Virus record (IMG/VR): IMGVR_UViG_3300028577_000024
Coordinates: 1-39,011 of that record
Reading direction: 5' to 3' (one strand)
DNA from: a virus
Length of the DNA: 39,011 bases
Of this stretch, positions 8,298 through 39,011 are shown piece after piece (position 1 is the stretch's first letter; each line of letters opens with the position of its first letter). A program made the position numbers and the translations under genes. The notes under the pieces are model-generated. The model was not told the DNA's origin. It did no database searches and saw nothing but the letters and a program-made list of their open reading frames with translations.

Positions 8298-9556
8298 ACG
8301 AGGATCGTCCCTGTGTCGAGCGCCGCGGTGCCCAGTACCCAAAACGGATCCGGCGCGGATGAGAGAATGACTCGCATTTCCCAGCGGTAGGGCTCGATCG
8401 TGTAGTCGTGCTCGAACCCCTGAACGATGTAATCGTGCGAGATGGTCGACCCCTTGTCCGGGCGGCGAACGAGCGTGACGCGCTGCATCAGATCGAGGGC
8501 GATCAGCGTGGCGGTGGCCAAGTTCGGATCGGTCATCTCGAACGCGATCGCGTCCACACGCAGGCGCGGCGATCGGCGGGACAGCATTTCGTACACGGCC
8601 CGGTTCTGGAGCTGCGAAAGTGTCACCGCGTCGGTCGATCCGAAGTCGTACGGCCGCGTCAGATAGTTGGTCTGGCTGGTCGCGTCATTGACCGTGGTGA
8701 TCGGAGTGCCGTCGGCGGTGGCGCCGTCGATCTGGTTCACGATCTGCTGCTCGTCGTAGGAGAGGTGTAGACCGCTGCGCTCCGCGCCCAGGTAGTTCAG
8801 CTCGCCCGGCCCGTCGCCGAGAACCGCCTGCGGCGTCGACCAGGTGCTGCTCGCCATGATCGACTGCAGGCAGTTGAAGATCAGGATTCCGTCCGCGCGC
8901 ACGTACACCGCGCCGCCGTCGAGCGTGGCGACGGCGCGCATGAAGTCCAGCGCGTTACCGGTGTACGTCGTCGCCTGGAGCGTCATCCCGCCGGAGTCGA
9001 CGACGCTGGGGAATGGCGAGCCGATCGCGGACAGGATCGCGGCGATGCGCTGGCCGGCGGTCTGCTGAGGGAAGGTCCGCGCCTTGATCTGCGCCAGCTG
9101 GTAGTAGCGGAACTGGTCGACCGCCGTGAGCGAGAGATCGCCGCCCTGGGCGGTGAGCCAGTTCGGATCCCAGTTCTGGACGACGCCGCGGAAGATGCGG
9201 CTCGATGCCGGAGCGACGCCGTAGAGCGTGCAGTCGGCCGAGTCCAGGTGCGATGCGTCCAGCGTGAACGGCGTGGCCAGACCATCCGAGATCCATTGGA
9301 TGTCGAACGGCATGAATGGAATTACTTTGTTCGCGTACGGCCCCAGCGTGTTCAGGGGCGTGAAGCGCGCATCCGAGTTCTCGAGCACCACCGTCACCGT
9401 GGAGGACTCGATTCGGTTCAGGTCCAGCGAGGCGCCGGAGCGCACGTGGATCTCTTTGACGTATGCGGAAATATCAACCCATTGGGTAAACGACGGCTCG
9501 CCAGCGCCGGGGGCGACGCCGGGAGCGATGCGCACGCGCTGGCCCGGGACGCTCAC
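8294..9556 (-). CDS. Minor tail / tail-tip protein
   Basis: 420 aa from GTG 9556, overlapping the stop of the second tape-measure gene. The sequence is beta-rich, with motifs typical of siphovirus distal-tail or baseplate hub proteins: an early WVDISAYVKEIHVRSG, an SSTVTVVLENSDARFTPLN stretch, FRGVVQNWDP, and a late HDYTIEPYRWEMRVILSSA. The order tape measure, minor tail, fibre is canonical. It probably forms part of the tip ring. No protease or lytic domain was seen. Confidence 0.75.
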   Translation of the reverse strand: MSVPGQRVRIAPGVAPGAGEPSFTQWVDISAYVKEIHVRSGASLDLNRIESSTVTVVLENSDARFTPLNTLGPYANKVIPFMPFDIQWISDGLATPFTLDASHLDSADCTLYGVAPASSRIFRGVVQNWDPNWLTAQGGDLSLTAVDQFRYYQLAQIKARTFPQQTAGQRIAAILSAIGSPFPSVVDSGGMTLQATTYTGNALDFMRAVATLDGGAVYVRADGILIFNCLQSIMASSTWSTPQAVLGDGPGELNYLGAERSGLHLSYDEQQIVNQIDGATADGTPITTVNDATSQTNYLTRPYDFGSTDAVTLSQLQNRAVYEMLSRRSPRLRVDAIAFEMTDPNLATATLIALDLMQRVTLVRRPDKGSTISHDYIVQGFEHDYTIEPYRWEMRVILSSAPDPFWVLGTAALDTGTILV

Positions 9557-12198
9557 GTCTTGATCCCCGTTCCCGAGTTGCGGTTTTGGATGCCGATCAG
9601 GCCGCGCCGAACGATCTGCGTCAGGTCGGTGTTCGAGAGCACGCTCCCGCCCACGTGCAGGTGCACGTGCACGTCGCCGGAGCGGGAGGACGCGGCCGGC
9701 GGCGAGCCGCGACCGCCGCCGCCGCTCATTCCCAGGCGATTGAGCGGGATGATCGCTTCCGGGCCGGCCTCGCCGACGAGGGCCAGCATTCCGCCCGGCT
9801 TGTCGACGATGCCGCCGTTCGCGAAAGCGGGGAAGGAGCCCGGCTGGACGCCGTACCCGCCGCCCGGCGCGAGGCCGGAGCCGCCGGGGTCCCACCACTC
9901 CCGCGTTCCGCCGTTCGGCAGGTCGTTGTAGGGGTTGCCGCCGGCGGTGCCGAGGCCGGAATACCAGTTCGACCCGGCACCGCCCGCGGCCCCTGATGGA
10001 GCCGTCGGCAGCTTGACGGGCGTCTGGCCGCCGGCGGCGGCGGGGATCGCGATCGGCGCCGGCGCTCCGCCGGCGCCGTTCATGACCTGGACGGTGTTGG
10101 GGTCCATCGAGCCGATACTGCCGGCGCCGCCGTCCTTGACGACCTGCACCCCCCAGTTCGTGGCGCTGGATCCGTTCGCGCCTCCAGGAGTCCCCGCGGG
10201 GGCTCCCTTGAGCACCTGCGGAGGCGTGGGATACTGCTGCTGCAGGTCGGCGGGTGACGGGAATGCGGCGTCCACGTTGAAGAAACCACCCGGAGTTGAG
10301 GCCGATTTCTGCATTGCTGCGCTGATCGCCTGCGCCACCTGGCTGGCCCATTGCGGGATCCAGTTCGTGAGGAAGTCCGTCAGCGACGTCTTCATCCGGC
10401 CCAGCGAGTCGGATCCGTACTGAACGGTTTGGTCCCAAAGCGTCTTGGCCTCACCGAAGGCATTGCTCAGCAGGTTCTTGACGTCGTCGTAGTAGGTACC
10501 GAACGCGGCTTTCGCCGCGGCATCCAGCAGCCCCCCGAGGCCCGAAGCGACCTGGGAGACCGACGTGACCGCCGCCTGCACCTTCGCGGAGATCGCGTCC
10601 CAGGCGGTCGACGTCGCCGACTTGATGCTCTCCCACATCGAGGACATCGTGGTCGACAGCGACGTCAGCATGGCAGAGGCCTTCGCGGAGATCGCGTCCC
10701 ACGTCGAGGCCAGGCCGGAGGCCAGCGCGGACGTGACGCTGAGCACCGTGCTCTTGATCGTGGTCCAGTTCGTGGCGATGAGCGCGATGGCGGCGACAGC
10801 CGCGGTAACGGGCCCGGCGAGACCCAGGAAGGCCGCGCCGATCGCGTCGACCGCCGTCAAGACGCCGGCGCCGATGGTGGCGATACTGCCCAGGCCCTCT
10901 GCGCCGGCGACGGCGGCGGCCGCTCCCTCCACTGCAACGGCGTCGGTTGCGAACAGCGCCGCGACGCTGTCCAGCGCAGCCCCCAGCGTGGCCTTCAGGC
11001 CGATCGCGGAGGTCACCACGCTGTTGAAGCCGATGACCAGGCCGCCCAGGGCGATGAGGGCCGGGCCCACCGCGGCCGCGACGCCCGCCATGACCACGAT
11101 CGTGTCCTGGACCGGGGCGGGCAATGCGGCGAAGGCGTTCACCAGATCGGCGAGGACCTGGATCGCCGACTGCGCGATCGGGATCACCTGGTTCACGATC
11201 ACGTTGGTGATCGCGGTGCCGAGCGGGGCGAGCGCTTCCGTGATCTTGTTTCCAAGTATTTGGAAATTATCGGAGAGCGTGCGCGAGGCGTCCGCCGCGC
11301 GGTTGATGCTCCCCGGCGCTCCGTCCAGGACGGACCTGAGCCCCTCGAAGTCGAGCGCTCCGCGGCGAATCGCATCGGCCATCACCGTCGCGTTCTTCCC
11401 GAGCTTTTCCGCCGCGAGCTGCTCCGCCTGCGTGTCGGTCGGCGCGTTCTTGATCTGCTCGAACAGGTCCTTGAGCCCGGTGCTCATGTCGACGCCCGAC
11501 TTCGCGAACTCGGCTTCGGCCTTCTTGAGCGACTGGATCACCGTGTCCGCGCTCACGCCGGCCTTCTCGAGCTGCCCGAGGAGCAGCGCGGAGTCGGTGA
11601 GTGAGAGGTGCATGCCGCGCAGCGCGGCGCCCCCGCTGGTGAGGTCGTCCGCGAGCTGCTGCACCCCGACGCCCGTCTTCTGGGAGATCGCGAACAGATC
11701 GTCCAGCGCGACGCTCTGATCCTGGGTCGCCACGCCCCAGTTCGCGAAGGCCTGCTGCGTGCTCACGATCAGCGGCCCGACGTCGCTGCCCGAGATCTTC
11801 GCGAGGTTGAGCATCTGTTCGGACATGCCCTGCAGTGCATCGCCGGTCAGGCCCGCGCGCTGGTGCAGGTCCGTGATCGCGGTGGCCGCCTCCGAGGCCG
11901 TCACCGGCAGGTCGCCGTAGACCTTCTTGAAGACGTCCCCGAGCTGCACCAGGTCGTCGCCGGTCGCGCCCGTCCCGTTGCGGATCTGGTTCATCGCGCC
12001 GGCCATCGTCTCGGACGCGGCGACCGCCGCGCCGCCCAGCCCGACGAGCGGCGCCGTGATCGCGGCGGAGAGCGACTTGCCGGCGGAGACGCATTCCTTG
12101 CCGAACGCGTCGACCGACTTGGAGGCCTGGAGTACGCCCTTCTCGAAGTCCGACAGGTCGACCCCGAAGCGCAGCAGTAGATTTCGGGCGGACCCCAT
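9553..12198 (-). CDS. Tape measure protein 2 (shorter paralogue)
   Basis: 881 aa from ATG 12198, which overlaps the stop of tape measure 1 (TGATG). The N-terminal ~330 residues have the TP901-type tape-measure core: GVDLSDFEKGVLQASKSVDA, ATAITDLHQRAGLTGDALQ, LSLTDSALLLGQLEKAGVS. Several hydrophobic segments follow (~400-540), then helical Ser/Ala-rich repeats, a Gly/Pro/Ala linker and a C-terminal ALVGEAGPEAIIPLNRLG, a signature often seen at tape-measure ends. The core is clearly related to the upstream protein (GLTGD, SLTD/SLAD, LLGQLEKAGV / LLAQLERAGV). Such proteins set tail length and are ejected ahead of DNA. Having two is unusual. Confidence 0.85.
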   Translation of the reverse strand: MGSARNLLLRFGVDLSDFEKGVLQASKSVDAFGKECVSAGKSLSAAITAPLVGLGGAAVAASETMAGAMNQIRNGTGATGDDLVQLGDVFKKVYGDLPVTASEAATAITDLHQRAGLTGDALQGMSEQMLNLAKISGSDVGPLIVSTQQAFANWGVATQDQSVALDDLFAISQKTGVGVQQLADDLTSGGAALRGMHLSLTDSALLLGQLEKAGVSADTVIQSLKKAEAEFAKSGVDMSTGLKDLFEQIKNAPTDTQAEQLAAEKLGKNATVMADAIRRGALDFEGLRSVLDGAPGSINRAADASRTLSDNFQILGNKITEALAPLGTAITNVIVNQVIPIAQSAIQVLADLVNAFAALPAPVQDTIVVMAGVAAAVGPALIALGGLVIGFNSVVTSAIGLKATLGAALDSVAALFATDAVAVEGAAAAVAGAEGLGSIATIGAGVLTAVDAIGAAFLGLAGPVTAAVAAIALIATNWTTIKSTVLSVTSALASGLASTWDAISAKASAMLTSLSTTMSSMWESIKSATSTAWDAISAKVQAAVTSVSQVASGLGGLLDAAAKAAFGTYYDDVKNLLSNAFGEAKTLWDQTVQYGSDSLGRMKTSLTDFLTNWIPQWASQVAQAISAAMQKSASTPGGFFNVDAAFPSPADLQQQYPTPPQVLKGAPAGTPGGANGSSATNWGVQVVKDGGAGSIGSMDPNTVQVMNGAGGAPAPIAIPAAAGGQTPVKLPTAPSGAAGGAGSNWYSGLGTAGGNPYNDLPNGGTREWWDPGGSGLAPGGGYGVQPGSFPAFANGGIVDKPGGMLALVGEAGPEAIIPLNRLGMSGGGGRGSPPAASSRSGDVHVHLHVGGSVLSNTDLTQIVRRGLIGIQNRNSGTGIKT

Positions 12199-15100
12199 CA
12201 GGATCGGCTCCCTGGCGGCGCTTTCGGAGGTGCGGTGGCGGCGACGAGCGGCCCATAGGGCTGGCTGGGCGGAGGAAGGATCCGAGACGCCCACACCACG
12301 TTGCCCTGAGCCTCGGGTGCGATGTGCGTGCCGACCTGCACGATAGGCGTGCCGTCGGCGGTGAGGGGCGTGCCGGCCGACCAATACCCGCGGTTGTCGT
12401 TGATGTCGCTCGACGCGTAGCTCGCGGCCTGGACAGGGCCCGGCGTACCGCTCGCGGGGCCGGCGACCCAGCCAGGCCCGGAGAGCGCGGCCGTCGACGC
12501 GACGCTGCTCGACCCGCTATCGATATCGGCCGCCTGCTGGGCGGCCGATGTCATGTCATACGTGGCTCCAGTTGCCGGATCGACAAGTTCGCTCCCCGGG
12601 CCGTCGGCGAATTGGAGCGTCGCCAGCCAGTCGTTGCCGGGGTCGCCCGTGCCGGCGGCATCGGGAAACGGAACCGGCCCATAGGGCTGGCTGGGCGGAG
12701 GAAGGATCCGAGACGCCCACACCACGTTGCCCTGAGCCTCGGGTGCGATGTGCGTGCCGACCTGCACGATAGGCGTGCCGTCGGCGGTGAGGGGCGTGCC
12801 GGCCGACCAATACCCGCGGTTGTCGTTGATGTCGCTCGACGCGTAGCTCGCGGCCTGGACAGGGCCCGGCGTACCGCTCGCGGGGCCGGCGACCCAGCCA
12901 GGCCCGGAGAGCGCGGCCGTCGACGCGACGCTGCTCGACCCGCTATCGATATCGGCCGCCTGCTGGGCGGCCGATGTCATGTCATACGTGGCTCCAGTTG
13001 CCGGATCGACAAGTTCGCTCCCCGGGCCGTCGGCGAATTGGAGCGTCGCCAGCCAGTCGTTGCCGGGGTCGCCCGTGCCGGCGGCATCGGGAAACGGAAC
13101 CGGCGCCGGCGAGCCCGCGGAAGCGGGAACGCTGGCGCTTGCGCCGACCGGCGCGACGCGCGCGGGGGACGCCGGCGCCGGAGGCGCGGGCGCTGCCGGA
13201 GAGCTCGTCGGTCGCGCGGATCCCGCACCGCTGGGCGCCGGGGCGGGCGCGGGGGACGCCGGCGCCGGAGGCGCGGGCGCTGCCGGAGAGCTCGTCGGCC
13301 ACGGAGTCCCCGTCCCGCCGGCCTGCTGGTTGATGTGGTTCACCGCGGCTTCCCACCCGGCCTGAGCCGCCTTAATAAGGTCCTCCGGGAGGACCAGCAT
13401 CGAGCCGGCGAAATCGCCGTTCACCAGCTGCTGCTGGCTCTCGAGCTGTATCCAGTACTCGTCCTCGCTCTCCGCTGGGCCGAACTGCGGCGGCGTCCAC
13501 GTGGGGTTCATCCACGAGCCCGCCGTCGGATCCGGCCCGAACTGCGGCGGCGTCCACGTGGGATCCATCCACGTCGGCGCGACCGGCCCGAGGCCCGCGA
13601 ACTGCGGCGGCGTCCACGTGGGGTTCATCCACGAGCCCGCCGTCGGATCCGGCCCGAACTGCGGCGGCGTCCACGTGGGGTTCATCCAGCTGCCGGCGGT
13701 CGGGTCGGGCCCGAACTGCGGCGGCGTCCACGTCGGATTCATCCAGGAGCCGGCGATTGGGGACGGGCCGAACTGCGGCGGCGTCCAGGTCGGATCGATC
13801 CCGCCACCCGCAGGCATCGGTGTGATGTTGGGCATCGGCCCGAATGCCCACCCGGCAGTCGACTGTCCCATCTGTTTCTGTAACTGACTCTGCCAGTCGT
13901 ATCCGCCGCTCCCACCCGCCGGCGGCGCGGGCGACGGCGGAAGAGGCGGCGGGGGCGGAAAGCTCGGCAGCGCCACGCTCAGCGGCGGCACGGGCGGCAG
14001 CGTCGTGACGCCGGCATCGTTCAGCGGGGCGAGCGCCGGCAGGCCCGGTAGCGAAAGCACAGGCAGATCCAGGGTCGGCCATGGCGCGGGGTTCGCCCCG
14101 GGGGGCGCGAGCGCAGCCAGCGCCGGCGCGGCTGTGGCCGGCGCTGCGAGAGCTCCCGCGCGCGCGGAGACCGACTGCGCCGCCTTCGACGCGGCGGCGT
14201 GAGCGCTGGTCAGTGACGATCCCGCGCTGCGGATGACCGCGGGAACGTCGGAGCCGCCGGCGCCCGGCAGGCCGGACTGGAACGCGTGCACCGGCGCGGC
14301 CGCCGCGCCGATCGCCGGGAGCAGGGCGGCGAGCGCGGCGGCGACGACGCCCAGGGCGCCGGCGGCGCGCACTCCCGCGGCGAGCAGCCCGGCGATCGCC
14401 GACGCCACCTCGCCGACGAACAGGAGCCCGGGCCCGACGATCGCGACCACGCCGGCCAGGATCACGGCCGCCGACACGAGCGCGGGCGGCAGGGTGGCGA
14501 TCTGGCGAGTGAGTTGCCCGAACGCGTCCACCATCGAGCCGGCGCTCATCACGACGGCGTTCATCGCGGGAACGAGCACGCGCAGGATCGCGTCGCCCAG
14601 AGGCAGCAGGGCCGCCTGCAGCTGGAGCCACAGGTCCTGCACGGCGCGCGTGAGCGTCGCGACCGGACCCGCGTCCGGCACCGCTCCGCCGGCGACGCCC
14701 GACACCTGCCCGATCGCGAGCGCGCCGCGCCGGATCGCCTCGGCCAGGATCGGCCCGGCGCGCTGACCGAACGTCTCCATCGCGAGCCGCGTGGCTTCCT
14801 GGCCGGGAGCCGCCCGCCGGATCGCGTCGATCTGCGCACGCAGCGCGGCCGCCGCGTCGTGCGCGCCCTCCTTCGAAAGCTTGGTCAGCGCGGTGCGAAG
14901 GCCGGTGATCGCCGTGGCCGTCGGCACGCCGGCGCGCTCGAGCTGCGCGAGGAGTTGCGCGCCGTCGGCGAGGGACAGGCCCGCGAGCCGGAACACGGGG
15001 GCCGCATCGGTCAGGCTCTGCGCGAGCCCCATGATTCCGCCGCTCGCCACGCGAGCCGAGTCGACCAGCCCGGTCATCGCGGCGGAGACGTCGCCGCTGG

Positions 15101-15563
15101 AGACCCCGAAGGCCTTCATCAGCCGGGCGAGCGCTTCCGCGGCGGGCGCGATCTGGGCGCCGCCCGCGCGCGCGACGCGGATCGCGGCGTCCGCCGCTTG
15201 CTGCAGCTGGTCGCCGGTGAGCCCCAGGCGCTGATTCAGGATCGAGACGGCTTCGGCCGCCTCCTGCACGCCCGCGCGCGTGTCCGTTCGTACGAGTTCA
15301 AACGTGTTCGCCAGCCCCGCGAGCGCTTCGCTTGCGGCACCGGTCGACGCGGCGATCAGGCGCGTCGCCTCCTTGTGAGCGCTCGCGGCCTTGACGGCGG
15401 GAACGGCGAGAAGGAGGATCGGGCCAGTGAGGATGCCGGCGAGCGCCGCGCCGAGGTTCGTGAGCGCCCCGCCCAGCGCAGCGATGCGCTCGCGTGCGGC
15501 ATCGATGGGCGCGGAGAAGAGGTCCGAGGCGGCCTTGCCGCGTACAGTCAGCTTGGGCGCCAC
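12198..15563 (-). CDS. Tape measure protein 1 with internal repeats
   Basis: 1121 aa from GTG 15563, chosen for GGAGGT 7 bases upstream; GTG 15587 is an alternative. Order: helical N-terminus (DLFSAPIDAARERIAALGGA), TP901-like core (~60-300; ILNQRLGLTGDQLQQAADA, LAQLERAGVPTATAITGLR), hydrophobic segments (~340-420), a long Pro/Ala region, six copies of a WTPPQF-centred ~20-aa repeat, an Ala/Pro stretch, and two identical 142-aa units at the C-terminus produced by a perfect 426-bp DNA duplication. The frameshifted chaperone upstream is the expected neighbour. The C-terminal half is unlike ordinary tape measures. Confidence 0.85.
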   Translation of the reverse strand: MAPKLTVRGKAASDLFSAPIDAARERIAALGGALTNLGAALAGILTGPILLLAVPAVKAASAHKEATRLIAASTGAASEALAGLANTFELVRTDTRAGVQEAAEAVSILNQRLGLTGDQLQQAADAAIRVARAGGAQIAPAAEALARLMKAFGVSSGDVSAAMTGLVDSARVASGGIMGLAQSLTDAAPVFRLAGLSLADGAQLLAQLERAGVPTATAITGLRTALTKLSKEGAHDAAAALRAQIDAIRRAAPGQEATRLAMETFGQRAGPILAEAIRRGALAIGQVSGVAGGAVPDAGPVATLTRAVQDLWLQLQAALLPLGDAILRVLVPAMNAVVMSAGSMVDAFGQLTRQIATLPPALVSAAVILAGVVAIVGPGLLFVGEVASAIAGLLAAGVRAAGALGVVAAALAALLPAIGAAAAPVHAFQSGLPGAGGSDVPAVIRSAGSSLTSAHAAASKAAQSVSARAGALAAPATAAPALAALAPPGANPAPWPTLDLPVLSLPGLPALAPLNDAGVTTLPPVPPLSVALPSFPPPPPLPPSPAPPAGGSGGYDWQSQLQKQMGQSTAGWAFGPMPNITPMPAGGGIDPTWTPPQFGPSPIAGSWMNPTWTPPQFGPDPTAGSWMNPTWTPPQFGPDPTAGSWMNPTWTPPQFAGLGPVAPTWMDPTWTPPQFGPDPTAGSWMNPTWTPPQFGPAESEDEYWIQLESQQQLVNGDFAGSMLVLPEDLIKAAQAGWEAAVNHINQQAGGTGTPWPTSSPAAPAPPAPASPAPAPAPSGAGSARPTSSPAAPAPPAPASPARVAPVGASASVPASAGSPAPVPFPDAAGTGDPGNDWLATLQFADGPGSELVDPATGATYDMTSAAQQAADIDSGSSSVASTAALSGPGWVAGPASGTPGPVQAASYASSDINDNRGYWSAGTPLTADGTPIVQVGTHIAPEAQGNVVWASRILPPPSQPYGPVPFPDAAGTGDPGNDWLATLQFADGPGSELVDPATGATYDMTSAAQQAADIDSGSSSVASTAALSGPGWVAGPASGTPGPVQAASYASSDINDNRGYWSAGTPLTADGTPIVQVGTHIAPEAQGNVVWASRILPPPSQPYGPLVAATAPPKAPPGSRS
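12249..13100. repeat. Perfect 426-bp tandem duplication inside tape measure 1
   Basis: 12249-12674 and 12675-13100 appear identical base for base, and the unit is 142 codons, so the frame is kept. It encodes two identical copies of a unit that includes VPFPDAAGTGDPGNDW, YDMTSAAQQAADIDSG and SSDINDNRGYWSAG. No divergence means a very recent duplication or an assembly artefact. Confidence 0.85.
13483..13803. repeat. Six degenerate ~60-bp repeats encoding WTPPQF units
   Basis: Six copies of a ~57-60 bp unit containing GAACTGCGGCGGCGTCCA (plus strand) encode NPTWTPPQFGPDPTAGSW-like units, with one shorter variant copy (GLGPVAPTW). The copies vary at synonymous and some non-synonymous positions, so this array is older than the 426-bp duplication beside it. 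Confidence 0.85.
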
Positions 15564-15567: not shown

Positions 15568-15789
15568 TCACCTCCGCCTTCGCGCACTCCCCGGCGCCGC
15601 GCGGGCCGCGCGCCGCTCCTCGATCTGGCCTTGCAGGGCGCGCGCCTGGTGGAAGGCGGCCCAGCGGGAGATCTCGCTCGCGCTCATCCGCTGCTCGAGC
15701 TCCTCCACCGTCATCCCGCCGAGCTGGAGCGCCAGCATGTGGAGGAAGACCTCCTCAGCTGCCTGGGGGTGTCTCCGGGGGTCCCCCAT
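15568..15789 (-). CDS. Tail assembly chaperone, downstream (GT-like) frame
   Basis: Frame of 73 aa with FLHMLALQLGGMTVEELEQR and SASEISRWAAFHQARALQ, the pattern of the second half of siphovirus tail chaperones (lambda GT-like). It overlaps the end of the 16168-15755 gene and lies +1 (equivalently -2) relative to it. The overlap contains GGGGGACCCCCGG, in which slippage at CCC-CCG onto CCC-CGG, or a -2 slip on the G run, would fuse the frames. It could also start at its own ATG 15789. The stop lies just before the tape-measure start. Confidence 0.75.
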   Translation of the reverse strand: MGDPRRHPQAAEEVFLHMLALQLGGMTVEELEQRMSASEISRWAAFHQARALQGQIEERRAARAAPGSARRRR

Positions 15790-16168
15790 CCCCAGAAGGA
15801 AACGTGGCCTTCGCCTCCTCGCGCGCGGCCGCGGAGAAGCCGTTCACGGTGGAGATCTGCGCGATGAGGTCCCCCCAGGCGATGCCGTCCTCAGCCTCGA
15901 GGTCGTCGACCGCGGCGTCCGTGAGCGGGGGATCCGCGACGCAGAAGCGCACCAGGGTGCGGTTCACGGCGGCTTCGTCGACGGCCTTGCCGTCCGCGTC
16001 CAGGTACTGGCGCACCGCGCGCACGCCGGCGCCGGACAGCTTCACCACGCCGAACTCGAGGAAGTTGCCTTCCGCGTCGGTGTACCGAGACGTGATCGGG
16101 GTCGGCGGCCGGCGTCGGATGTCCGCCAGCAGGGCGCGCTTCACGCGCTTCTCGTTGTCGTTCTTCAT
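15755..16168 (-). CDS. Tail assembly chaperone, upstream (G-like) frame
   Basis: 137 aa, starting in a TGATG overlap with the tube-like gene. Acidic and helical, with NFLEFGVVKLSGAGVRAVRQ and DDLEAEDGIAWGDLIAQI. Position between tube and tape-measure genes, size, and an overlapping second frame identify it as the G-type chaperone that keeps the tape measure soluble during tail assembly. The final residues (SGDGGPPETPPGS) are encoded by the G/C runs where the frameshift would occur. Confidence 0.8.
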   Translation of the reverse strand: MKNDNEKRVKRALLADIRRRPPTPITSRYTDAEGNFLEFGVVKLSGAGVRAVRQYLDADGKAVDEAAVNRTLVRFCVADPPLTDAAVDDLEAEDGIAWGDLIAQISTVNGFSAAAREEAKATFPSGDGGPPETPPGS

Positions 16169-16581
16169 CAGAAGGTGTCCTTCGTGTACGCGCCCGTCAC
16201 GTCGAACTGCGCGGTGAAGGGCACCACGCCCGTGACGTTCGGCTTGAGGTTCCAGGAACGCAGGATCGCGCTGCCGGTGAATCGCTTCTTGCTCGTGGCG
16301 TTGCCTTCCGGACCCACGCGGAACGCGGTTGCGACCCCGCGCGCCCAGTAGAGCGCCTCCGCGAGGCCGCCGGACGACAGGTCCACGAATCCTTCGACGG
16401 TGAACGAAGCGTCGGTCAGTCCCTTCTGGCGCTTCTTCGCCTTCGATCCCAGCGTGGTGGAGTCGGGGTTCGTCGCCGACGGCTTCCAGGTCACCTTGCT
16501 GATGGTGGCCGAGTAGTCGGTGATGCTCCCGGACTTGTTGTTGAGCCAGAACGATGCGTCCTTGCCATGCGGGTTGCTCAT
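16168..16581 (-). CDS. Second tail-tube-like protein
   Basis: 137 aa from ATG 16581 with AAAGGAG upstream. Begins MSNPHGKDASFWLNNKSGSI, has DSTTLGSKAKKRQKGLTDAS and ends TAQFDVTGAYTKDTF; the beta-rich layout and motifs (GKD, TTLGS, GLTD) match the fold of major tail-tube proteins and resemble the first ~80 residues of the adjacent 237-aa protein (GKDS, TTMGSQ, GLKDS). Either protein could be the actual tube, with the other a minor or terminator ring. Confidence 0.7.
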   Translation of the reverse strand: MSNPHGKDASFWLNNKSGSITDYSATISKVTWKPSATNPDSTTLGSKAKKRQKGLTDASFTVEGFVDLSSGGLAEALYWARGVATAFRVGPEGNATSKKRFTGSAILRSWNLKPNVTGVVPFTAQFDVTGAYTKDTF

Positions 16582-16593
16582 CGCCTGCTCCTT

Positions 16594-17307
16594 TTAGCCG
16601 CGGAAGAGAGCCTCAGAGAACGTGGCGCTGGTGAAGGTGCCGGACCAGGACGTGCGCGTGTAGCGGTTGACCGTGCCTGCGAACGCGATCCTCTCGGTCG
16701 TGCCGCCCGCGGTGATCGCGGTATGCGTCGCGAGCGTCGAGAAACTCACACCGTCGGAGCTGTGCTCCACGAGGATCGTGATCGAGGTCCCTGTGAACGC
16801 CGTGCACACGACGTACGCGGCGCCGCCGTTGGACGAGCTCGCGCCGTTGTCGAGCGCGGTGGTGTGGGTGACGGTCGTCTCCGCAGCGAGCGGGTGAAGG
16901 CTCTGGACGAACTCGACGTCGTCGTCGCCTTCGAAACTGCCGTCGATCGTGATGATCTGCGCGACCGGCATGTCGACCGAGAAGTCCTTCTCGCGCGACC
17001 GCATCGCGAACCCGAACGTGCCGATCGCGACCTCGCCCAGCACCCACAGCAGCACGATGCAGTCCGTGGAGAGCGTGAGCGCGGAGTTCAGGAGTTCCAT
17101 GATCGCGTTGGTGCCGCTGTCGTAGTAGCCGCTAGCCGCGAGCGTCGAGTCTTTGAGGCCCCCGATGCGAGTGACCGCCTGGGAGCCCATCGTGGTGTTG
17201 TCCGACACGTCGGCGTTGAGCGCCAGGTCGTAGTCCTTCACGTAGGGCGAGGCGTTGACGCCGTTCACGTAGCACGCGCTGTCCTTGCCGACCCCGAACT
17301 GACTCAC
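16594..17307 (-). CDS. Tail-tube-like protein with C-terminal beta domain
   Basis: 237 aa from GTG 17307, which overlaps the upstream stop (GTGA). The first ~150 residues look like a tail-tube domain (NGVNASPYVKDYDLALNADV, TTMGSQAVTRIGGLKDSTLA, TIDGSFEGDDDVEFV). Residues ~155-237 add a Thr/Ser-rich beta domain (SITILVEHSSDGVSFSTLAT) resembling add-on domains that decorate tail surfaces. Likely the major tail protein. No separate terminator protein is obvious besides the upstream DUF3168-like gene. Confidence 0.75.
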   Translation of the reverse strand: MSQFGVGKDSACYVNGVNASPYVKDYDLALNADVSDNTTMGSQAVTRIGGLKDSTLAASGYYDSGTNAIMELLNSALTLSTDCIVLLWVLGEVAIGTFGFAMRSREKDFSVDMPVAQIITIDGSFEGDDDVEFVQSLHPLAAETTVTHTTALDNGASSSNGGAAYVVCTAFTGTSITILVEHSSDGVSFSTLATHTAITAGGTTERIAFAGTVNRYTRTSWSGTFTSATFSEALFRG

Positions 17308-17747
17308 GGGCTCACCTGCTTCATCACCTGGATCGAGAACTCGGCCATCGCCCACCGCGCGACGGTCGTTCCGTCGTCGTAGCGGCCCACGCGCGTGGCG
17401 TCGTGCATCGCGTGGATGAAATCGAACCCCTCGACGACCAGGTCCTCGTCGTCGAGGAGCGTGATTACCCGGTCAATCAGGCCCTCGACCTCCAGGAACC
17501 CGTTGTAGTCGCGGGTCACCGCGAGGATGCGCGGGCGCACGGTCTTCCCGGAACGCCTCATCGTGTCGAGCTTCATCTCGTCGGCGTCCCCGAGCAGGAT
17601 GTAGCGGGGCAGGTTCTTGGGCGGCCGGTCGTAGATTTTCGGGTCGCCGGGAGGCGCCGCTCCGGCGAGCGCCGCGAGCAGCGGGGCGTCGACCGACAGC
17701 ACGCCGTAGATCGACTGCTGGACGGCGGTCAGGGCGGAGCCACCCAT
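17304..17747 (-). CDS. Tail completion / terminator-like protein
   Basis: 147 aa. LTAVQQSIYGVLSVDAPLLA at the N-terminus and AMAEFSIQVMKQ at the C-terminus match small siphovirus neck proteins of the DUF3168 / tail-terminator type, which cap the tail tube next to the head. Position between the head-closure gene and the tube gene agrees. TGATG overlap upstream, GTGA overlap downstream. Confidence 0.7.
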   Translation of the reverse strand: MGGSALTAVQQSIYGVLSVDAPLLAALAGAAPPGDPKIYDRPPKNLPRYILLGDADEMKLDTMRRSGKTVRPRILAVTRDYNGFLEVEGLIDRVITLLDDEDLVVEGFDFIHAMHDATRVGRYDDGTTVARWAMAEFSIQVMKQVSP

Positions 17748-20270: not shown

Positions 20271-20705
20271 TCACTGGATCACCATCATCTTCCGGCCCGG
20301 GAGGTCGCCCGGATCGGGCTCGCTGACCACGAGCGTCACCACCGCGGTGGCGGCCGCGGCGTTCGCGATCTTCTTCGCCGCCTCGAGGTGATCGAGCACG
20401 CGCTGCACACGCGCCCCGATCGCGCTGTCCTCGCGCGCGATCGCCTCGAGTAGCTCTTTGACGCCGACGCTCGTGCGCTTGACGTCCTGGCTCTCCTCCG
20501 CGACCAGGACGCGGTTCGTCTCGAGGTGGTAGACCGGGCCCGTGGTCTGGACCGCCTTCGCGAGGCGCTCCTGTTCGATGGCGTCGAGCGCGCCCAGCGT
20601 GCGCAGCTCCGCCTTCAGGCGGGCGATGCGGTCGCGGCGCGCCAGGAATCGCGCGAACGCCTCCCGGATCACGCCGACGGCTTCTTTCACGGCTTGGGCG
20701 AGCAT
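20271..20705 (-). CDS. Helical hypothetical protein in the head operon
   Basis: 144 aa. Almost entirely helical and charged (EAVGVIREAFARFLARRDRI, DAIEQERLAKAVQTTG, ELLEAIAREDSAIGARVQRV), ending in AAATAVVTLVVSEPDPGDLP and VIQ. Overlap TGATG with the upstream gene. The composition suits a coiled-coil structural or assembly protein. No family recognised. Confidence 0.65.
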   Translation of the reverse strand: MLAQAVKEAVGVIREAFARFLARRDRIARLKAELRTLGALDAIEQERLAKAVQTTGPVYHLETNRVLVAEESQDVKRTSVGVKELLEAIAREDSAIGARVQRVLDHLEAAKKIANAAAATAVVTLVVSEPDPGDLPGRKMMVIQ

Positions 20706-21148
20706 CAGGGCGCGCCCTCCGACGGGCTCACCAGCGTGGTGAGGCTCTTGATCGTGACGTCGAGCGTGGGCGGCAGCTTCGAGCCGCGGTAGCGGATCGC
20801 CCAGACGCCGTCGATGACCGCGTTCGCGGTTGCCCGCAGCACGACCACGCGCAGGTACCGCTTCAGGGCGCGATAGACGTCGTGCATCACGGTCTTGTTG
20901 TCGTCCGCGCCGCCCGCGGCGAGAGAGACGCCGGATCCGGCGATGTCCGCCATCGTTCCACCGGCGGGGTCCGTGTCCTCCTGCACCTTCACGCTCGTCA
21001 CAGCAGACGCGGTGATCGCGCCGAAGGCGGTCAGGAAGATCACGCCGTCCCACCCCGCCATGTCCAGGACGGCGGAGTTCTGGTTCGACGTGCCGGCTGC
21101 CACGTCGTTCATCAGCCTCACCGGGCTGAAATCCGTTCCCTTGCTCAT
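20705..21148 (-). CDS. Capsid-associated (decoration-like) protein
   Basis: 147 aa. MAGWDGVIFLTAFGAITASA, TDPAGGTMADIAGSGVSLA, DDNKTVMHDVYRALKRYL and VVVLRATANAVIDGVWAIRY match a family of small beta-rich proteins often found right after the major capsid gene in HK97-type phages, thought to sit on or stabilise the head. The exact role is inferred from position. The upstream 129 bp of the gene are copied in the chimeric ORF next to it. Confidence 0.7.
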   Translation of the reverse strand: MSKGTDFSPVRLMNDVAAGTSNQNSAVLDMAGWDGVIFLTAFGAITASAVTSVKVQEDTDPAGGTMADIAGSGVSLAAGGADDNKTVMHDVYRALKRYLRVVVLRATANAVIDGVWAIRYRGSKLPPTLDVTIKSLTTLVSPSEGAP

Positions 21149-21525
21149 CTCGGTCTCCTGCCCCCGCGGGGCGCCTCTAGATCGTTTGCGCTCCGACGAA
21201 TCAGGCGAGCTTGAGCCGGGCGAAGGCCTCCGCGAGCACCGGCTGGCCGTCGATTTCCATCCGGCCGATGTAGCCGAAGGCGGTCAGGAAGATCACGCCG
21301 TCCCACCCCGCCATGTCCAGGACGGCGGAGTTCTGGTTCGACGTGCCGGCTGCCACGTCGTTCATCAGCCTCACCGGGCTGAAATCCGTTCCCTTGCTCA
21401 TCTCGGTCTCCTGCCCCCGCGGGGCGCCTCTAGATCGTTTGCGCTCCGACGAATCAGGCGAGCTTGAGCCGGGCGAAGGCCTCCGCGAGCACCGGCTGGC
21501 CGTCGATTTCCATCCGGCCGATGTA
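21020..21525. repeat. Perfect 253-bp tandem duplication between capsid and decoration genes
   Basis: 21020-21272 and 21273-21525 are identical. The unit holds the 5' part of the decoration-like gene, the spacer and the last ~24 codons of the capsid gene. GCCGA is present at all three junctions, as expected for duplication at a 5-bp microhomology. Both flanking genes stay whole because each keeps one intact copy. Artefact of assembly is possible because the copies are identical. Confidence 0.85.
21201..21401 (-). CDS. Chimeric small ORF made by the 253-bp duplication
   Basis: 66 aa. The first ~43 residues (MSKGTDFSPVRLMNDVAAGT onward) equal the N-terminus of the decoration-like protein. The rest, through FGYIGRMEIDGQPVLAEAFA, equals the C-terminus of the major capsid protein. 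It has the original start region, so it would be translated, but it is a junction product and probably has no evolved function. If real, it could poison or dilute assembly of either parent. Confidence 0.6.
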   Translation of the reverse strand: MSKGTDFSPVRLMNDVAAGTSNQNSAVLDMAGWDGVIFLTAFGYIGRMEIDGQPVLAEAFARLKLA

Positions 21526-22782
21526 GCCGACCTGGTTGTTGATGGCGTAGAGCTCCATCAGCCGCTGCAGCTGCATGCTCAGCGACTCGGCGATCCAGTA
21601 GAACGACAGGTCGCCGAAGAGCATCACGTACTTCCCGGTGGTGAACGTGTTGGGCGCGTACTCCGACATGCAGAGCGGGCGACCCATGATCGTGTCGGCC
21701 TGCTTGCCGGAGAGCGACGGGAACCCGGCACCCATCCCGGCGGGCGCCCAGATGTAGTTCGAGTTGCCGTCCTTGAGCTTCCGGAGCCGCTGCACCGTGT
21801 CGCGGTGCATGATCCAGACGCCGGAGTCCTGGTACTGGGCCTTGACGCTGTAGTACGTGGCGATGATGTCGTCGCCCGTGAACGCGGTGGACGCGCTGGC
21901 GGTCGTGTCGCGGTTGTTCGCGCCGGAACCCGGGATGCCGTCGGCCGACGGCGTGAAGAGCCCGAGCGGGCCCTGCTTGGTGCCGGGGCCCGTCAGGAAG
22001 CCCTTCTCCTGCGCGATGGCGAACTTGTAGGCGAGGCGCTGCGCGACCAGCTGCTCGACGTTGATCGCGCTGATGCGGATCAGGCGGTTCGAGATCTTCA
22101 CGAGTTTGGACAGCGGCGTGGGTTTGAGCGCCCGCTTGCCCACCGTCATCGCGGTGTCTTCCGCCGCCGGCTGGATCTCCTCCGTCCAGTCGGGGTCCGA
22201 GAGGTCGTTGTCCAGCGAGGGCGCGCCCAGCGAATCGGCGCTCACCAGCGGCATCACCGTCGCCATCCGGCGGACGAACACGTAGTCGTCCACGAACTTG
22301 ATCAGCGTCGCGACGAACTGCTCGACCGGCGCCAGGTACCCGGCCGACGTCGCGTTGTCCGCGACCAGCGCGCGCGACTCGCGCGAGCGCTTCGCGTAGA
22401 GCGGCGCGATATCGACCTTCTCCGGATCCGGCGGCTCGAAGCGCCACGTGTGCGGATCCGCGTTGCCCGCGTTCTTGCCGCGGATGAAGTTCCGCACGGC
22501 GAGCGCCTTCTTGGCGAACTCCGGGTCGTACTGCGGCGCTGCCCCGCGCGCGCCGGGCTCGTGGACCGGCGTCATCGGCGCCGCGAACTCGGCATCAAGC
22601 CGGGCGCTGCGCTCCTCGTGCTCGACCTCCTTGCCGAGGCGGTCGATGTCCCCGCACAGGGCCTGATACTGACCCTCTTCTTCGCCGCGCAGCGCGCGCT
22701 TCTCCCCGTCGGCCTTCGCCATCAGGGCCTTGGCCTGAGTCCACAGCTCGCAGCGCTTCTGGCGCTTCTCCAGCGTGTTCAC
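21454..22782 (-). CDS. Major capsid protein, HK97 fold
   Basis: 442 aa from GTG 22782 with GAGGAGGA upstream. The N-terminal ~110 residues are a charged helical scaffold-like delta domain (GDIDRLGKEVEHEERSARLD). HK97-type features follow: TSAGYLAPVEQFVATLI, VKISNRLIRIS, QEKGFLTGPGTKQGPLGLF, SGVWIMHRDTVQRLRKLKDG, GRPLCMSEYAP, YVMLFGDLSFYWIAESLS. The protease directly upstream would remove the delta domain. Its end matches the duplicated segment. Confidence 0.93.
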   Translation of the reverse strand: MNTLEKRQKRCELWTQAKALMAKADGEKRALRGEEEGQYQALCGDIDRLGKEVEHEERSARLDAEFAAPMTPVHEPGARGAAPQYDPEFAKKALAVRNFIRGKNAGNADPHTWRFEPPDPEKVDIAPLYAKRSRESRALVADNATSAGYLAPVEQFVATLIKFVDDYVFVRRMATVMPLVSADSLGAPSLDNDLSDPDWTEEIQPAAEDTAMTVGKRALKPTPLSKLVKISNRLIRISAINVEQLVAQRLAYKFAIAQEKGFLTGPGTKQGPLGLFTPSADGIPGSGANNRDTTASASTAFTGDDIIATYYSVKAQYQDSGVWIMHRDTVQRLRKLKDGNSNYIWAPAGMGAGFPSLSGKQADTIMGRPLCMSEYAPNTFTTGKYVMLFGDLSFYWIAESLSMQLQRLMELYAINNQVGYIGRMEIDGQPVLAEAFARLKLA

Positions 22783-22792: not shown

Positions 22793-23923
22793 TCAGAGAG
22801 AGAGCCGGAGCAGCTCCAGCTTCTGGCGGTAGAGCGTCATGCGGTCGTTCGAGATCGGCGGGTCGGCCACCTCGGCCAGGCCGCGCATCACGGAGCGCAC
22901 CAGGGCGCGGTCCTCGTCGCGGCCGGCGCCGGCATTCAGCCGGTCGTAGGCCCGGAGGAGCGAGCGGTAGGAGACGCCGGACAGCCGCGCCGCGCGGGCG
23001 CCGACGTCGGTCTGGGTGTACTGGGGCTCGGTGACCGGGCCTGCGTCCCACAGCCGTGCGCGCACGAGGGTGCGCATCACGACGCGATCGCCGGCGGCGA
23101 GCGAACGCTCGAAGCGGTCGTCGAGCGTGTCGAAGCCGAAGCTCGCGCCCCACACGTCGCGGCGGTCGATCGAGATGAGGAGGTCCTTTTCGTAGGAGCG
23201 CTCCGCGCTCTCGAAGCGGAACAAGAGGCCGCGCGTGTCCTCTGCCAGCTCGAGCGTGGAAGGCTGGCCCGGGTGGCTGGCCGCGAGTGGATAGTTGCGG
23301 TCGTGGTTGAAGAGGCAGGACACGCGGTCGGTGCGAATGGAGTCCTTGAAGCATCCGCGCTGGACCTGCTCGAGCAGGCCTGGCATCAGCTCGGTGGCCT
23401 GATCGAAGACCGCCGCGTGCCCCTCGACGACGCGCTTGCCGCCCTTCGCCGCGCGGTGCTCGATCTGCGTCACGGGGTAGCTGCGCCGCGAGAACTCCCC
23501 GATCTCCTCGACGCCGGCCGGGCGGTCGCACGGCTCGTGCGTCATGGGCGCGTCATTGCGGGTCGCGCTCTTGAGCTCGGGGGCTTCCTTGCCCCCGTCC
23601 CGCAGGTGCTCTGCGAGGTGGCGGTACACGCCCTGGCGGTCGTCGTCGGGAACGCTCGCCCCGTCGCGCCCCCCGTTCAGCGCGGCGATGCCGGCCGAAC
23701 ACGCGGCGAGGTTGGCGGCCCCGACCTTTCCGTCCGAACTGACTTCGTGGTGCGGGAACTTGTAGCTGGACTTCGAGTCCGGATCGCCGTCCGAGTCCGA
23801 CCAGGCGCACAAGGCGCGGAGCGCCTTGCGCTCGTCGGGGCAGCGTTTCAGCGCCTCCCCGGCGTCCCACGCGTGATCCACGGTGGCGGTCTTGTGCGGC
23901 TTGATGGGCCCGCGCTTCTCCAC
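22793..23923 (-). CDS. HK97-type prohead protease with N-terminal extra domain
   Basis: 376 aa, GTG start without a strong ribosome-binding site. Residues ~140-300 are the serine protease of the herpesvirus/HK97 type: RVVEGHAAVFDQ, catalytic His in CLFNHDRNYPL (H207), catalytic Ser in WGASFGFD (S261). The first ~120 residues are a separate domain (HAWDAGEALKRCPDERKAL, YKFPHHEV, GVYRHLAEHLRD) that I recall as an accessory N-terminus on some prohead proteases. The gene precedes the capsid gene by 10 bases. It is the first late gene on this strand, since TerL and portal are on the other strand. Confidence 0.88.
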   Translation of the reverse strand: MEKRGPIKPHKTATVDHAWDAGEALKRCPDERKALRALCAWSDSDGDPDSKSSYKFPHHEVSSDGKVGAANLAACSAGIAALNGGRDGASVPDDDRQGVYRHLAEHLRDGGKEAPELKSATRNDAPMTHEPCDRPAGVEEIGEFSRRSYPVTQIEHRAAKGGKRVVEGHAAVFDQATELMPGLLEQVQRGCFKDSIRTDRVSCLFNHDRNYPLAASHPGQPSTLELAEDTRGLLFRFESAERSYEKDLLISIDRRDVWGASFGFDTLDDRFERSLAAGDRVVMRTLVRARLWDAGPVTEPQYTQTDVGARAARLSGVSYRSLLRAYDRLNAGAGRDEDRALVRSVMRGLAEVADPPISNDRMTLYRQKLELLRLSL

Positions 23924-24056
23924 ATCGCTGACGGTAACCGGCTCTCCGACGCCTTCGGCATGGGGTCACCGGCAGCAACGCTTGATTGCCGCTGCCGGTC
24001 GGGACAGCCGGTGGTTGGGGTGCGATAATTGATCCGGGTGGGGGAGGAGTGTGGGC
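23924..24056. promoter_or_regulatory. Divergent control region between late operon and TerL unit
   Basis: The region holds a perfect 9-bp inverted repeat, ACCGGCAGC at 23968-23976 and GCTGCCGGT at 23991-23999, with TTGATT in the loop, and an extended -10-like TGCGATAAT at 24021-24029 that could start rightward transcription near 24036. GGAGGAG at 24043-24049 is the ribosome-binding site for 24057. No equally good leftward promoter was found for the late operon. Confidence 0.5.
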
Positions 24057-24308
24057 GTGCTGAAGTGCGTGGAGGGCGCGTTTCGCAGGGAAAAGGACAG
24101 GGCTCTGACCGATGTGTGGAAGCTCGCCCGGAGGACCGGGATCCCGGCATGGCGCCTGTACCGGGTAATCAACGGACAGAGGAAGGACGTCACCGACGGC
24201 GAGATCCGCGCGATCTCCGCCGAACTCGGGGTGGATGAGGAGCGGTTCCGCAAAGAACTGGACGAGGCCTCTCAGGAGCAGCGCGCGCGTGACGCACGTG
24301 CGTCATAA
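24057..24308 (+). CDS. Small HTH protein upstream of TerL: regulator or small terminase
   Basis: 83 aa from GTG 24057, chosen over GTG 24051 for spacing to GGAGGAG. A helix-turn-helix is clear at ~20-55 (TDVWKLARRTGIPAWRLYRV, then INGQRKDVTDGEIRAI), followed by SAELGVDEERFRKELDEASQ and a charged tail. XRE-like repressors look like this. Its place right before TerL and the flanking pair of similar 28-bp repeats would equally suit a small terminase that recognises the packaging site. No other TerS candidate lies next to TerL. Confidence 0.65.
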   Translation: MLKCVEGAFRREKDRALTDVWKLARRTGIPAWRLYRVINGQRKDVTDGEIRAISAELGVDEERFRKELDEASQEQRARDARAS

Positions 24309-24312
24309 GAGC

Positions 24313-24340
24313 TGCAGCAGCGATTGATTGCGGCTGCCGA
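24313..24340. promoter_or_regulatory. Second copy of the 28-bp dyad element
   Basis: 24313-24340 matches 23971-23998 at 23 of 28 positions in direct orientation. Both have GCAGC/GCTGC arms around a TTGATTGC core. The two copies flank the small HTH gene, one before it and one between it and TerL. They may be its binding sites, either as transcription operators or as cos/pac recognition sites. Confidence 0.55.
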
Positions 24341-24384
24341 TGTCGCGGTAGGGCGACCGCCGGCGCCCCCTTACGCTCTGGGGT

Positions 24385-26364
24385 GTGACCGCGCGCGGCA
24401 TCGGCAGGAAGCCACGAGCGGCGGCGCCGGGCAAACGCGGCGGCCGCCGCGACGTGCCGCGCTCCTCGCTCGCGAAACGCCCGCGGCGATCCCAGAACAA
24501 GGCCGGCCGTTACCAGGGAAAGCGCGGCGATCGCCGCGAGGCCCGACCCGCGCAAACGAAGACGCCGGCGCCCCCCGCCAAGCGCTCGGCCTCGCGCCGC
24601 ATCTCTACCCGCAAGCGGCCTGACGCGCCGGAGAAACGCCGGCGACTGCCCGACCCGGAGCCTGAAGAGAAGGTCGAGCTCGCGGACGCGTCGCTTCGAC
24701 AGCCGCGGCCGCCTTCGCCCGCGATGCTCGCGCTGATGAAGGGCTGGCCAGCGGAGTGGCGCGAGCGCGCTCAGCACGTCGTCGACTTCTTCGAGACCAA
24801 ACTATCGCTGCAGAAAGGCGACGCTGCCGGCCAGCCGTTCCTTCTCTCGCCTTGGCAGGAAGAGGTCCTCCGCCTGGCCTACGGCCCCCGGCATCCCGAT
24901 GGCCGGCGGATCTGCAAGGTGATTTGGCTCGAGGTCGCGTCGAAGAACGCGAAGAGCACCCTGGCGGGCGGCGTGGGGCTCTACGAGCTGCTGCATTCCG
25001 GATCCGGCGGCGCGGAAGTGTACAGCGTCGCTCGAAATCGCAAGCAAGCGCGCTTGGTCTTTCTGAGCGGCCGCGCGATGGCGATCGACAGCGCGCCGGT
25101 CGCGGAGCGCCTCCACATCTTCCGGCACTCGATCGAGGTCGAAGGGGACGAGCTCGCGAAGTTCGAGCCGCTCGTATCCGACGAGGACACGATCGACGGC
25201 GTCGACCCGCAGGCCGTGATCTTCGACGAGGTCCATCGCTTCGGACACGCCGGCGCCGGCGTCGTGCGGACGCTGCAGGCTAAGCAGGCCAGCCGGCGCG
25301 ACCCGATCATGATGTTCATCTCGACCGCGGGAGAGTTCGACACCGACACGATCGCGTGGGAGCTGCACAGCTATGCCAAGGGCGTGATCGACGGATCGAA
25401 CCCGGACCCGACGTGGGTCGCGCGCATCTTCACGGTGCCGCAGGAGCTCGACCCGTGGGACGAGAAGCATTGGCCCCTCGCGAACCCGAACCTGGGCGTC
25501 TCGGTCTCGATCGACTTCCTCCGCGACCGCGCGCGCGCCGCGAAGAAGTCGAAGGCCGCGGAGGCGGCTTTCCGGCGCTTCCATTTGAACCAGTGGGTCG
25601 CGATCGAGACGAAGTTCGTCGACATCCAGCTCTGGGACGCGTGCCCGAAGGGGGATCTGCGGGACGTCCTGCGCGAGCTCGCGGGCCAGCCGTGCTGCTC
25701 GGGGCTGGATCTTGGGTCGACCCGCGACCTCTCTGCGCACGCTCTACTGTTCCCGCGCCCCGGTGAGACGTTCGACGTGATCGTGCGGTGTTTCATGCCG
25801 GTCGAGCGCTTGGCGGAGCACATCGAGAACGACGAGCGCCCGTACGATGTCTGGGCGCGCGAGGGATGGCTCACGTTGACGCCGGGCAACGTGATCGACT
25901 TCCGGGCAATCAGACTGTCGATCGAGGACGACTTCCGCGCGTTCAAATTGCGCGACCTCGCCTTCGACCGCGCCGGCGCGGCGAACATGACTCAGGAGCT
26001 CGACCTCACCCTGGGCGAGCAGTCCGGGCTCCCGGAGCAGGACCGGCTGAACGTGATCGCCTTCGGACAGGGCTTCCTGTCCATGTCCGAGCCGACGAAG
26101 GATCTGCTCGACCTGGTGCGCGCCGGCCGCATCCGGCACTTCGGCAACCCGATCCTGCGCTGGATGATGGACTGCTGCACCACCGTCCAGGACCCCGCCG
26201 GCAACATCAAGCCGGTGAAGCCGGACCGCCGGAAGCACAAGAAGAGGATCGACGCGGTGGTCGCGCTGATCATGGGCTTGGCGCGCGCGCGGCTCCTCAA
26301 GGCGAAGGTCGAGGCTGGCGCCGGCGTGTCTGTCTACGAGCAGCGAGGAGTGCTGGTGTTCTGA
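24385..26364 (+). CDS. Terminase large subunit
   Basis: 659 aa from GTG 24385. The ATPase part has a Walker-A-like VASKNAKST (184-192), Walker B VIFDE (278-282) and the following HRFG. The nuclease part has acidic residues at GLDLGSTRD (D442), AFDRAG (D528) and KRIDAVVALI (D623), as in Terminase_1/HK97-type packaging motors. The first ~110 residues are strikingly Arg/Lys/Pro-rich with no fold visible; ATG 24724 (residue 114) would give a protein of ordinary length. Rightward, overlapping the portal (TGATG). On the opposite strand from protease and capsid, which is unusual. Confidence 0.93.
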   Translation: MTARGIGRKPRAAAPGKRGGRRDVPRSSLAKRPRRSQNKAGRYQGKRGDRREARPAQTKTPAPPAKRSASRRISTRKRPDAPEKRRRLPDPEPEEKVELADASLRQPRPPSPAMLALMKGWPAEWRERAQHVVDFFETKLSLQKGDAAGQPFLLSPWQEEVLRLAYGPRHPDGRRICKVIWLEVASKNAKSTLAGGVGLYELLHSGSGGAEVYSVARNRKQARLVFLSGRAMAIDSAPVAERLHIFRHSIEVEGDELAKFEPLVSDEDTIDGVDPQAVIFDEVHRFGHAGAGVVRTLQAKQASRRDPIMMFISTAGEFDTDTIAWELHSYAKGVIDGSNPDPTWVARIFTVPQELDPWDEKHWPLANPNLGVSVSIDFLRDRARAAKKSKAAEAAFRRFHLNQWVAIETKFVDIQLWDACPKGDLRDVLRELAGQPCCSGLDLGSTRDLSAHALLFPRPGETFDVIVRCFMPVERLAEHIENDERPYDVWAREGWLTLTPGNVIDFRAIRLSIEDDFRAFKLRDLAFDRAGAANMTQELDLTLGEQSGLPEQDRLNVIAFGQGFLSMSEPTKDLLDLVRAGRIRHFGNPILRWMMDCCTTVQDPAGNIKPVKPDRRKHKKRIDAVVALIMGLARARLLKAKVEAGAGVSVYEQRGVLVF

Positions 26365-38659: not shown

Positions 38660-39011
38660 GCGTTCTCACCCGCCACGATGAGGCGGTCGAGCAGGTCGAA
38701 GGCGCCGCGTAGAAGCTTCTCGCGGACCGGCGCGACGGCGGCGAGCGCGAGCGGCCTCACCCTGTCAAAAACGCAGGAGCGAAGCGACTGCATCCGATCG
38801 AAGTAGCGCCACGCCTCCGCCGCCGCCACCGCCGCCGCCACCGCCTCCGCCGCCGCCGCCGCCGCCACCGCCTCCGCCGCCGCCACCGCCTCCGCCGCCA
38901 CCGCCTCCGCCACCGCCTCCGCCGCCTCCGCCACCGCCACCGCCTCCGCCGCCGCCGCCACCGCCTCCGCCGCCGCCACCGCCACCGCCTCCGCCGCCGC
39001 CGCCGCCGGCG
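38656..39011 (-). CDS. C-terminal part of the Ala-repeat protein, cut by the contig end
   Basis: The frame is open to the contig end; ATG 38985 is only an internal Met-encoding codon and not the likely start. It encodes an imperfect Ala/Glu/Val repeat (units like AAEAVAEAV) and then a helical C-terminus (WRYFDRMQSLRSCVFDRVRP, LRGAFDLLDRLIVAG). That C-terminus is of the kind I expect at the end of the family whose N-terminus is encoded at 566-1. With the shared GGCG counted once, the frames join. Function unknown. Confidence 0.8.
   Translation of the reverse strand, partial: PAAAAAEAVAVAAAEAVAAAAEAVAVAEAAEAVAEAVAAEAVAAAEAVAAAAAAEAVAAAVAAAEAWRYFDRMQSLRSCVFDRVRPLALAAVAPVREKLLRGAFDLLDRLIVAGENA
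38818..39011. repeat. GCC/TCC/ACC triplet array at the right contig end
   Basis: About 190 bp made almost wholly of GCC, ACC and TCC triplets, coding Ala, Val and Glu on the minus strand. The array can expand or contract without changing the frame. It is the likely reason the assembly was cut here, and its true length in the phage may differ from what is shown. Confidence 0.85.

Follow-up and report, generated by a model that had tools for sequence, protein, structure and literature searches.

The window, i.e. the whole stretch of DNA that was analysed, comprises the entire 39,011-base virus record IMGVR_UViG_3300028577_000024 (GC content 69.5%) and encodes a terminase, a portal, connectors, a head protease, a major capsid protein, tail genes and an integrase. 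The major capsid protein aligns over its full length with its counterparts in other phages. The genes examined did not include a tail sheath, so that the phage is most likely a temperate siphovirus. Its tail genes form a run on the minus strand, in the order terminator-like gene, tube 1, tube 2, two chaperone-like ORFs, two genes of the tape-measure protein (TMP) family, termed TMP1 and TMP2, and hub (Table 1).

Table 1. Features of the tail gene run, positions in the window
Feature	Position	Strand	Basis or remark
Tail terminator-like gene	17304-17747	minus	
Tail tube-like protein 1, 237 aa	16594..17307	minus	phrog_9522
Tail tube-like protein 2, 137 aa	16168..16581	minus	phrog_10528
Probable tail assembly chaperone, G-like ORF	15755..16168	minus	position; phrog_344 match very weak
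Tail assembly chaperone, T-like ORF	15568..15789	minus	phrog_337 (E 6e-13); weak Phage_tail_T
TMP1, TMP-family protein, 1121 aa, GTG start	12198..15563	minus	ORF, PF10145, PHROG TMP families, in-frame codon usage
TMP1 N-terminal TMP core and hydrophobic segments, residues 1-425	14289..15563	minus	BLASTP, block order, model
TMP1 C-terminal region, residues ~480-1121, Pro/Gly/Ala/Ser-rich, predicted disordered	12198..14124	minus	pLDDT, composition
Six 19-aa repeats, (N/D)PTWTPPQFGPDPTAGSWM, in TMP1	13480..13801	minus	pS 0.24, pN 0.025 in repeat cores
Exact in-frame 426-bp tandem duplication (142 codons, 2.0 copies) near TMP1 C-terminus	12249..13104	minus	
TGATG stop/start overlap of TMP1 and TMP2	12196..12200	minus	overlap of one base in the context ...CCTGATGGGG
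TMP2, canonical tape-measure protein, 881 aa, ATG start	9553..12198	minus	ORF, PF10145, best PHROG family phrog_991 (E 2.3e-57)
TMP2 N-terminal TMP core and first hydrophobic segment, residues 1-425	10924..12198	minus	block order, model
TMP2 C-terminal domain (AFANGGIVDKPGGMLALVGEAGPEAIIPL...)	9625..9831	minus	profile; absent from TMP1
Tail hub/distal tail protein, 420 aa	8294..9556	minus	directly after TMP2

Several further features of the record were recorded. The terminase large subunit (24724-26364) and portal (26418-27788) lie on the plus strand and the protease, capsid and tail genes on the minus strand, and this strand switch at 22793-27788 breaks the usual terminase-portal-protease-capsid order. 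Past the major capsid gene, an exact 253-bp tandem duplication (2.0 copies, 21020-21530) creates a hybrid 66-aa ORF (21201-21401) which joins the start of the gene at 20705-21148 to the capsid C-terminus; like the 426-bp duplication in TMP1, it could be either a recent event or an artefact of the assembly. At both of its ends (1-52 and 38812-39008) the record consists of G+C-rich simple repeats, which may be the points where assembly stopped. In the tail run, the two tube genes (16168-17307) are adjacent paralogues, and their counterparts in Microcystis phage Mae-JY09 are 49% identical to each other. The reading frame of the T-like chaperone ORF is +1 with respect to that of the G-like ORF, so that a fusion of the two would require a +1 or -2 shift instead of the usual -1; the T-like ORF also has an ATG of its own at 15789.

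Two adjacent genes with a shared tape-measure core

The initial annotation had described two adjacent, intact and homologous TMP-family genes, and both ORFs are indeed present at full length (1121 and 881 aa), overlapping by the single base of the TGATG motif. The annotated frame is favoured by codon usage through almost all of TMP1 and TMP2, with weak support in a few Pro/Ala-rich TMP1 windows. The overlap suggests that TMP1 is translationally coupled to TMP2, and the sequence AGGGAG at 12208-12213, about 9 nt upstream of the TMP2 ATG, is a plausible ribosome-binding site.

Profile searches bear out the TP901-type core that had been proposed for both products. TMP1 (65.3 bits, E 9.1e-18) and TMP2 (51.6 bits, E 1.4e-13) each match PF10145 (PhageMin_Tail) above its curated cut-off of 33.2 bits, and both match many PHROG tape-measure families. 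The sequence blocks noted earlier, GLTGD, SLTD/SLAD and LLGQLEKAGV/LLAQLERAGV, occur in the same order in the two proteins. In the pairwise alignment that had been proposed as a check, the N-terminal regions share 119 of 363 residues (BLASTP, 33% identity, 137 bits, E 7e-37), indicating significantly similar cores. This similarity is limited to the N-terminal ~360-425 residues, and BLAST detects none between the C-terminal parts. A single TMP split in two was ruled out, as the N-terminal core is complete in both ORFs. Thus, TMP1 and TMP2 both carry the core of the TP901-type/PhageMin_Tail TMPs (PHROG 991/1272/1533), and both lie between the chaperones and the hub.

Conservation and origin of the gene pair

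A matching layout was found in the metagenomic phage contig L128 (IMGVR_UViG_3300009104_000441), which has the same order of tail terminator, tube 1, tube 2, TMP and hub. In contrast to our phage, it encodes a single TMP of 745 aa, and this protein is closer to TMP2 (158 bits) than to TMP1 (85 bits). TMP2 also outscores TMP1 against every relative listed. Moreover, TMP2 lies downstream of the chaperones and directly before the hub, as does the single TMP in L128 and L127, where homologues of the hub adjoin its 3' side. Based on the synteny with L128 and the higher scores of TMP2 with L128 and the relatives listed, the pair is best read as an ancestral tape measure, TMP2, to which TMP1 was added, either by duplication or by acquisition.

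Phylogenetic analysis gave different placements for the two proteins. In one tree they are sisters (support 90/70); in a broader tree they are not, and their union is not rejected (AU p = 0.126). By BLAST, the best match of TMP2 is a protein other than TMP1. TMP1 has a long branch and an unusual composition, and the long branch also fits relaxed constraint.

The same tube pair, followed by a chaperone and then a TMP, is found in the Arthrobacter phages Salgado, Ottawa and Kovu and in Mae-JY09, all of which differ from our phage in having a single TMP. Downstream of this gene, the Arthrobacter phages encode minor tail proteins rather than further TMPs (684 and 389 aa in Salgado). A check of Salgado gp68 for a hidden second TMP identified a minor tail protein (phrog_14138) without a match to the TMP profile. 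The initial annotation had further raised the possibility of a doubling of the whole tail module. This does not hold, since the chaperones and the hub are single here, and the tube pair is a conserved unit of its own, accompanied by a single TMP in all five of these relatives (Salgado, Ottawa, Kovu, Mae-JY09 and the contig L128).

Conservation analysis in larger collections likewise revealed single genes. Whereas several single-protein scans of IMG/VR and a first genome scan gave no relatives, a three-sequence alignment did. One TMP-core ORF per locus was found at 26 IMG/VR loci, at 79 further IMG/VR loci (47 of them flanked by 2 kb or more on each side), and at 17 loci in bacterial or archaeal genomes as well as the phage loci fetched. 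A second TMP-core gene was thus not found in any of these ~120 related loci, a few of whose records recur between scans and many of which are cut by contig ends. In tblastn searches of INPHARED, TMP2 (326 places in 326 records), TMP1 (33 in 33) and the L128 TMP (232 in 232) found no second place in any record. With the Mae-JY09 TMP as query, 972 places in 968 records were detected at 1e-5, a second, weak place occurring in at most 4 of the 968, and at E 1e-22 no second places were left (322 in 322).

Among bacterial genomes, PF10145 matches above the cut-off numbered 57 in 395 genomes of the class of a Gordonia genome and about 106 in 398 genomes of the phylum of a Dethiobacter genome. In none of these 793 genomes was a second TMP-core gene found beside a match, in a search that is blind to partners outside PF10145. 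The only close pairs of PF10145 matches, in two genomes (G087 and G698), represent fragments of a single broken domain. Phrase searches of the literature available did not reveal any description of neighbouring TMP paralogues; the matches to 'two tape measure' that were checked concerned chaperones, comparisons of TMPs between phages, or proteomics of a Mu-like phage. The adjacent TMP pair is apparently unique in our sample.

Contrasting C-terminal regions of TMP1 and TMP2

TMP2 has the layout of an orthodox tape measure, with a core, a hydrophobic segment, helices and a C-terminal domain. A profile seeded with the last 96 residues of TMP2 found this domain in 60 of the 105 TMPs that have their 3' end within the contig, with a median distance of 61 residues to the C-terminus. 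Hence, TMP2 carries a domain which is common among its PhageMin_Tail relatives. The same profile gave no match to TMP1 at E values up to 10. The missing domain alone does not preclude a ruler function of TMP1, since it is undetectable in 45 of the 105 relatives as well.

AlphaFold2 models of the two proteins, which were built on 16 sequences and are of low confidence everywhere outside the cores, both show a helical core (pLDDT about 75-93) followed by long helices. In TMP1, residues 60-280 are all helical (pLDDT about 77-89), and the helical core and long helices extend to about residue 476. Beyond this point, residues ~480-1121 have almost no predicted secondary structure and a pLDDT mostly below 45, and residues 426-1121 consist of 17.5% Pro, 17% Ala and 11% Gly. 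The low pLDDT from the 16-sequence alignment, together with this composition, predicts that the C-terminal region of ~640 residues is disordered. A helical rod through most of the protein length is not predicted for TMP1. In the TMP2 model, further long helices at residues 440-633 (low pLDDT) are followed by C-terminal strands and a helix, and the C-terminal half is also mostly of low confidence. The contrast between the two C-termini is therefore one of prediction and not of structure. We also considered a frameshift in TMP1 which might hide the usual rod, and in nearly all windows the other frames score below the annotated one.

Two unusual repeat regions had been pointed out in the first gene; they correspond to the six 19-aa units and the exact 426-bp duplication. 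In the cores of the 19-aa repeats, silent differences exceed replacements (pN/pS about 0.1-0.2). The amino acids are held while silent sites vary, which suggests that the TMP1 C-terminus is, or recently was, a protein under selection. No sign of purifying selection was found in the 87-bp Pro/Ala repeats beside them. For the TMP1 C-terminus, neither Pfam nor PHROG gave a match, tblastn detected nothing similar in phages, and searches for solved structures yielded no relative by sequence and no significant match by fold. BLAST finds no relatives of it, whereas the C-terminal part of TMP2 finds some. Internal repeats and duplications are known from TMP genes, with units of 11 aa (Belcaid et al. 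2011, PMC3271669). Those units represent gains and losses within one ruler, in contrast to the second gene with 19-aa Pro/Trp repeats found here. TMP1 also differs from its PhageMin_Tail relatives, which are encoded by one gene, in that a repetitive C-terminus, predicted to be disordered, replaces the rod and the C-terminal domain.

A probable ruler and a candidate accessory protein

Tape measure proteins combine two jobs, which are difficult to tell apart because they reside in one essential chain: they set tail length and they aid passage of the DNA across the host envelope. For lambda, the TMP contacts the inner-membrane ManYZ machinery and a defence nuclease during genome entry (PMC13190303). 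We tentatively favour a model in which TMP2 is the ruler and TMP1 an extra, neofunctionalised TMP-family protein that would enter the tail and accompany the DNA on ejection as an accessory factor. TMP2 would act as an ordinary tape measure and set tail length alone. TMP1, which lies upstream of the original tape measure and next to the tail chaperones, would keep the N-terminal helical domain and the hydrophobic helices and carry a repetitive, predicted-disordered tail in place of the rod and the C-terminal domain. Its TMP core could bring it into the tail lumen or tip, and it would then be delivered as an ejection or membrane-passage factor rather than as a second ruler. An ejection role is suggested by the retained core and hydrophobic helices and by the role of TMPs in genome entry. 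TMP1 is probably an accessory protein and not a second ruler. A full division of labour, with one ruler and, lacking rod and C-terminal domain, a disordered-tailed protein acting in the lumen or in ejection, is possible, if somewhat doubtful.

The main rival to this ruler-plus-accessory reading is a transitional relic: a TMP was recently acquired or duplicated, the work is done entirely by TMP2, and TMP1 drifts as a redundant copy whose C-terminal repeat expansion is tolerated since nothing depends on it. The long branch and unusual composition of TMP1, its exact and recent 426-bp duplication, the 87-bp repeats without constraint and the lack of a retained pair in any relative examined are all in line with such a relic. 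It nevertheless appears unlikely in view of 1121 codons without a stop or frame break, with neighbour-like codon usage in most windows, the low pN/pS of the 19-aa repeats, and a TMP2 start that is tied to the end of TMP1 by the stop/start overlap. The two proteins could also form a composite ruler, lying in the tube end to end or in mixed bundles and jointly setting the length, as both have a TMP core and hydrophobic helices and their genes are adjacent and probably coupled. At the 0.15 nm per residue used in the initial annotation, tail lengths would be ~132 nm for TMP2 alone (881 aa), ~168 nm for TMP1 (1121 aa) and ~300 nm for the two in series (2002 aa). We consider joint measurement improbable because the extra length of TMP1 is predicted to be non-helical: its ~640 C-terminal residues are Pro-rich with almost no predicted helix, unlike a helical rod, and TMP1 lacks the C-terminal domain.

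An assembly artefact, in which the contig merges TMP alleles from a pair of related phages, or in which at least the 426-bp duplication is spurious, has less probability again. The metagenomic IMG/VR source, the two exact 2.0-copy tandem duplications (426 and 253 bp) and the lack of the pair in a second record would fit such an origin. However, the precise stop/start overlap makes a misjoined contig unlikely, as a false join would have to hit TGATG exactly, next to a plausible ribosome-binding site, and 33% protein identity leaves little to mis-join on; the 426-bp duplication is internal to TMP1 and leaves the pair untouched. Finally, two intact TMP-family genes might be used alternatively and yield two kinds of particles with different tail lengths. 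This is highly improbable, since the one-base overlap within a single operon-like run leaves no room for a switch between the genes, and TMP1 has neither the C-terminal domain nor the predicted rod.

Two tape measures, as initially annotated, are thus present as two homologous cores and not as proteins of equal standing, because only TMP2 has the C-terminal domain and, at low model confidence, a predicted helical rod region. Among the options raised at that stage, one copy adapted to another job fits best, the job being the putative ejection function proposed above.

If true, the ruler function would here be separated from the ejection function of tape measure proteins. A phage with a second TMP-family protein that no longer resembles a ruler would represent a natural case in which the two jobs are separated, and would show that TMP genes can be added, and not just lengthened or swapped.
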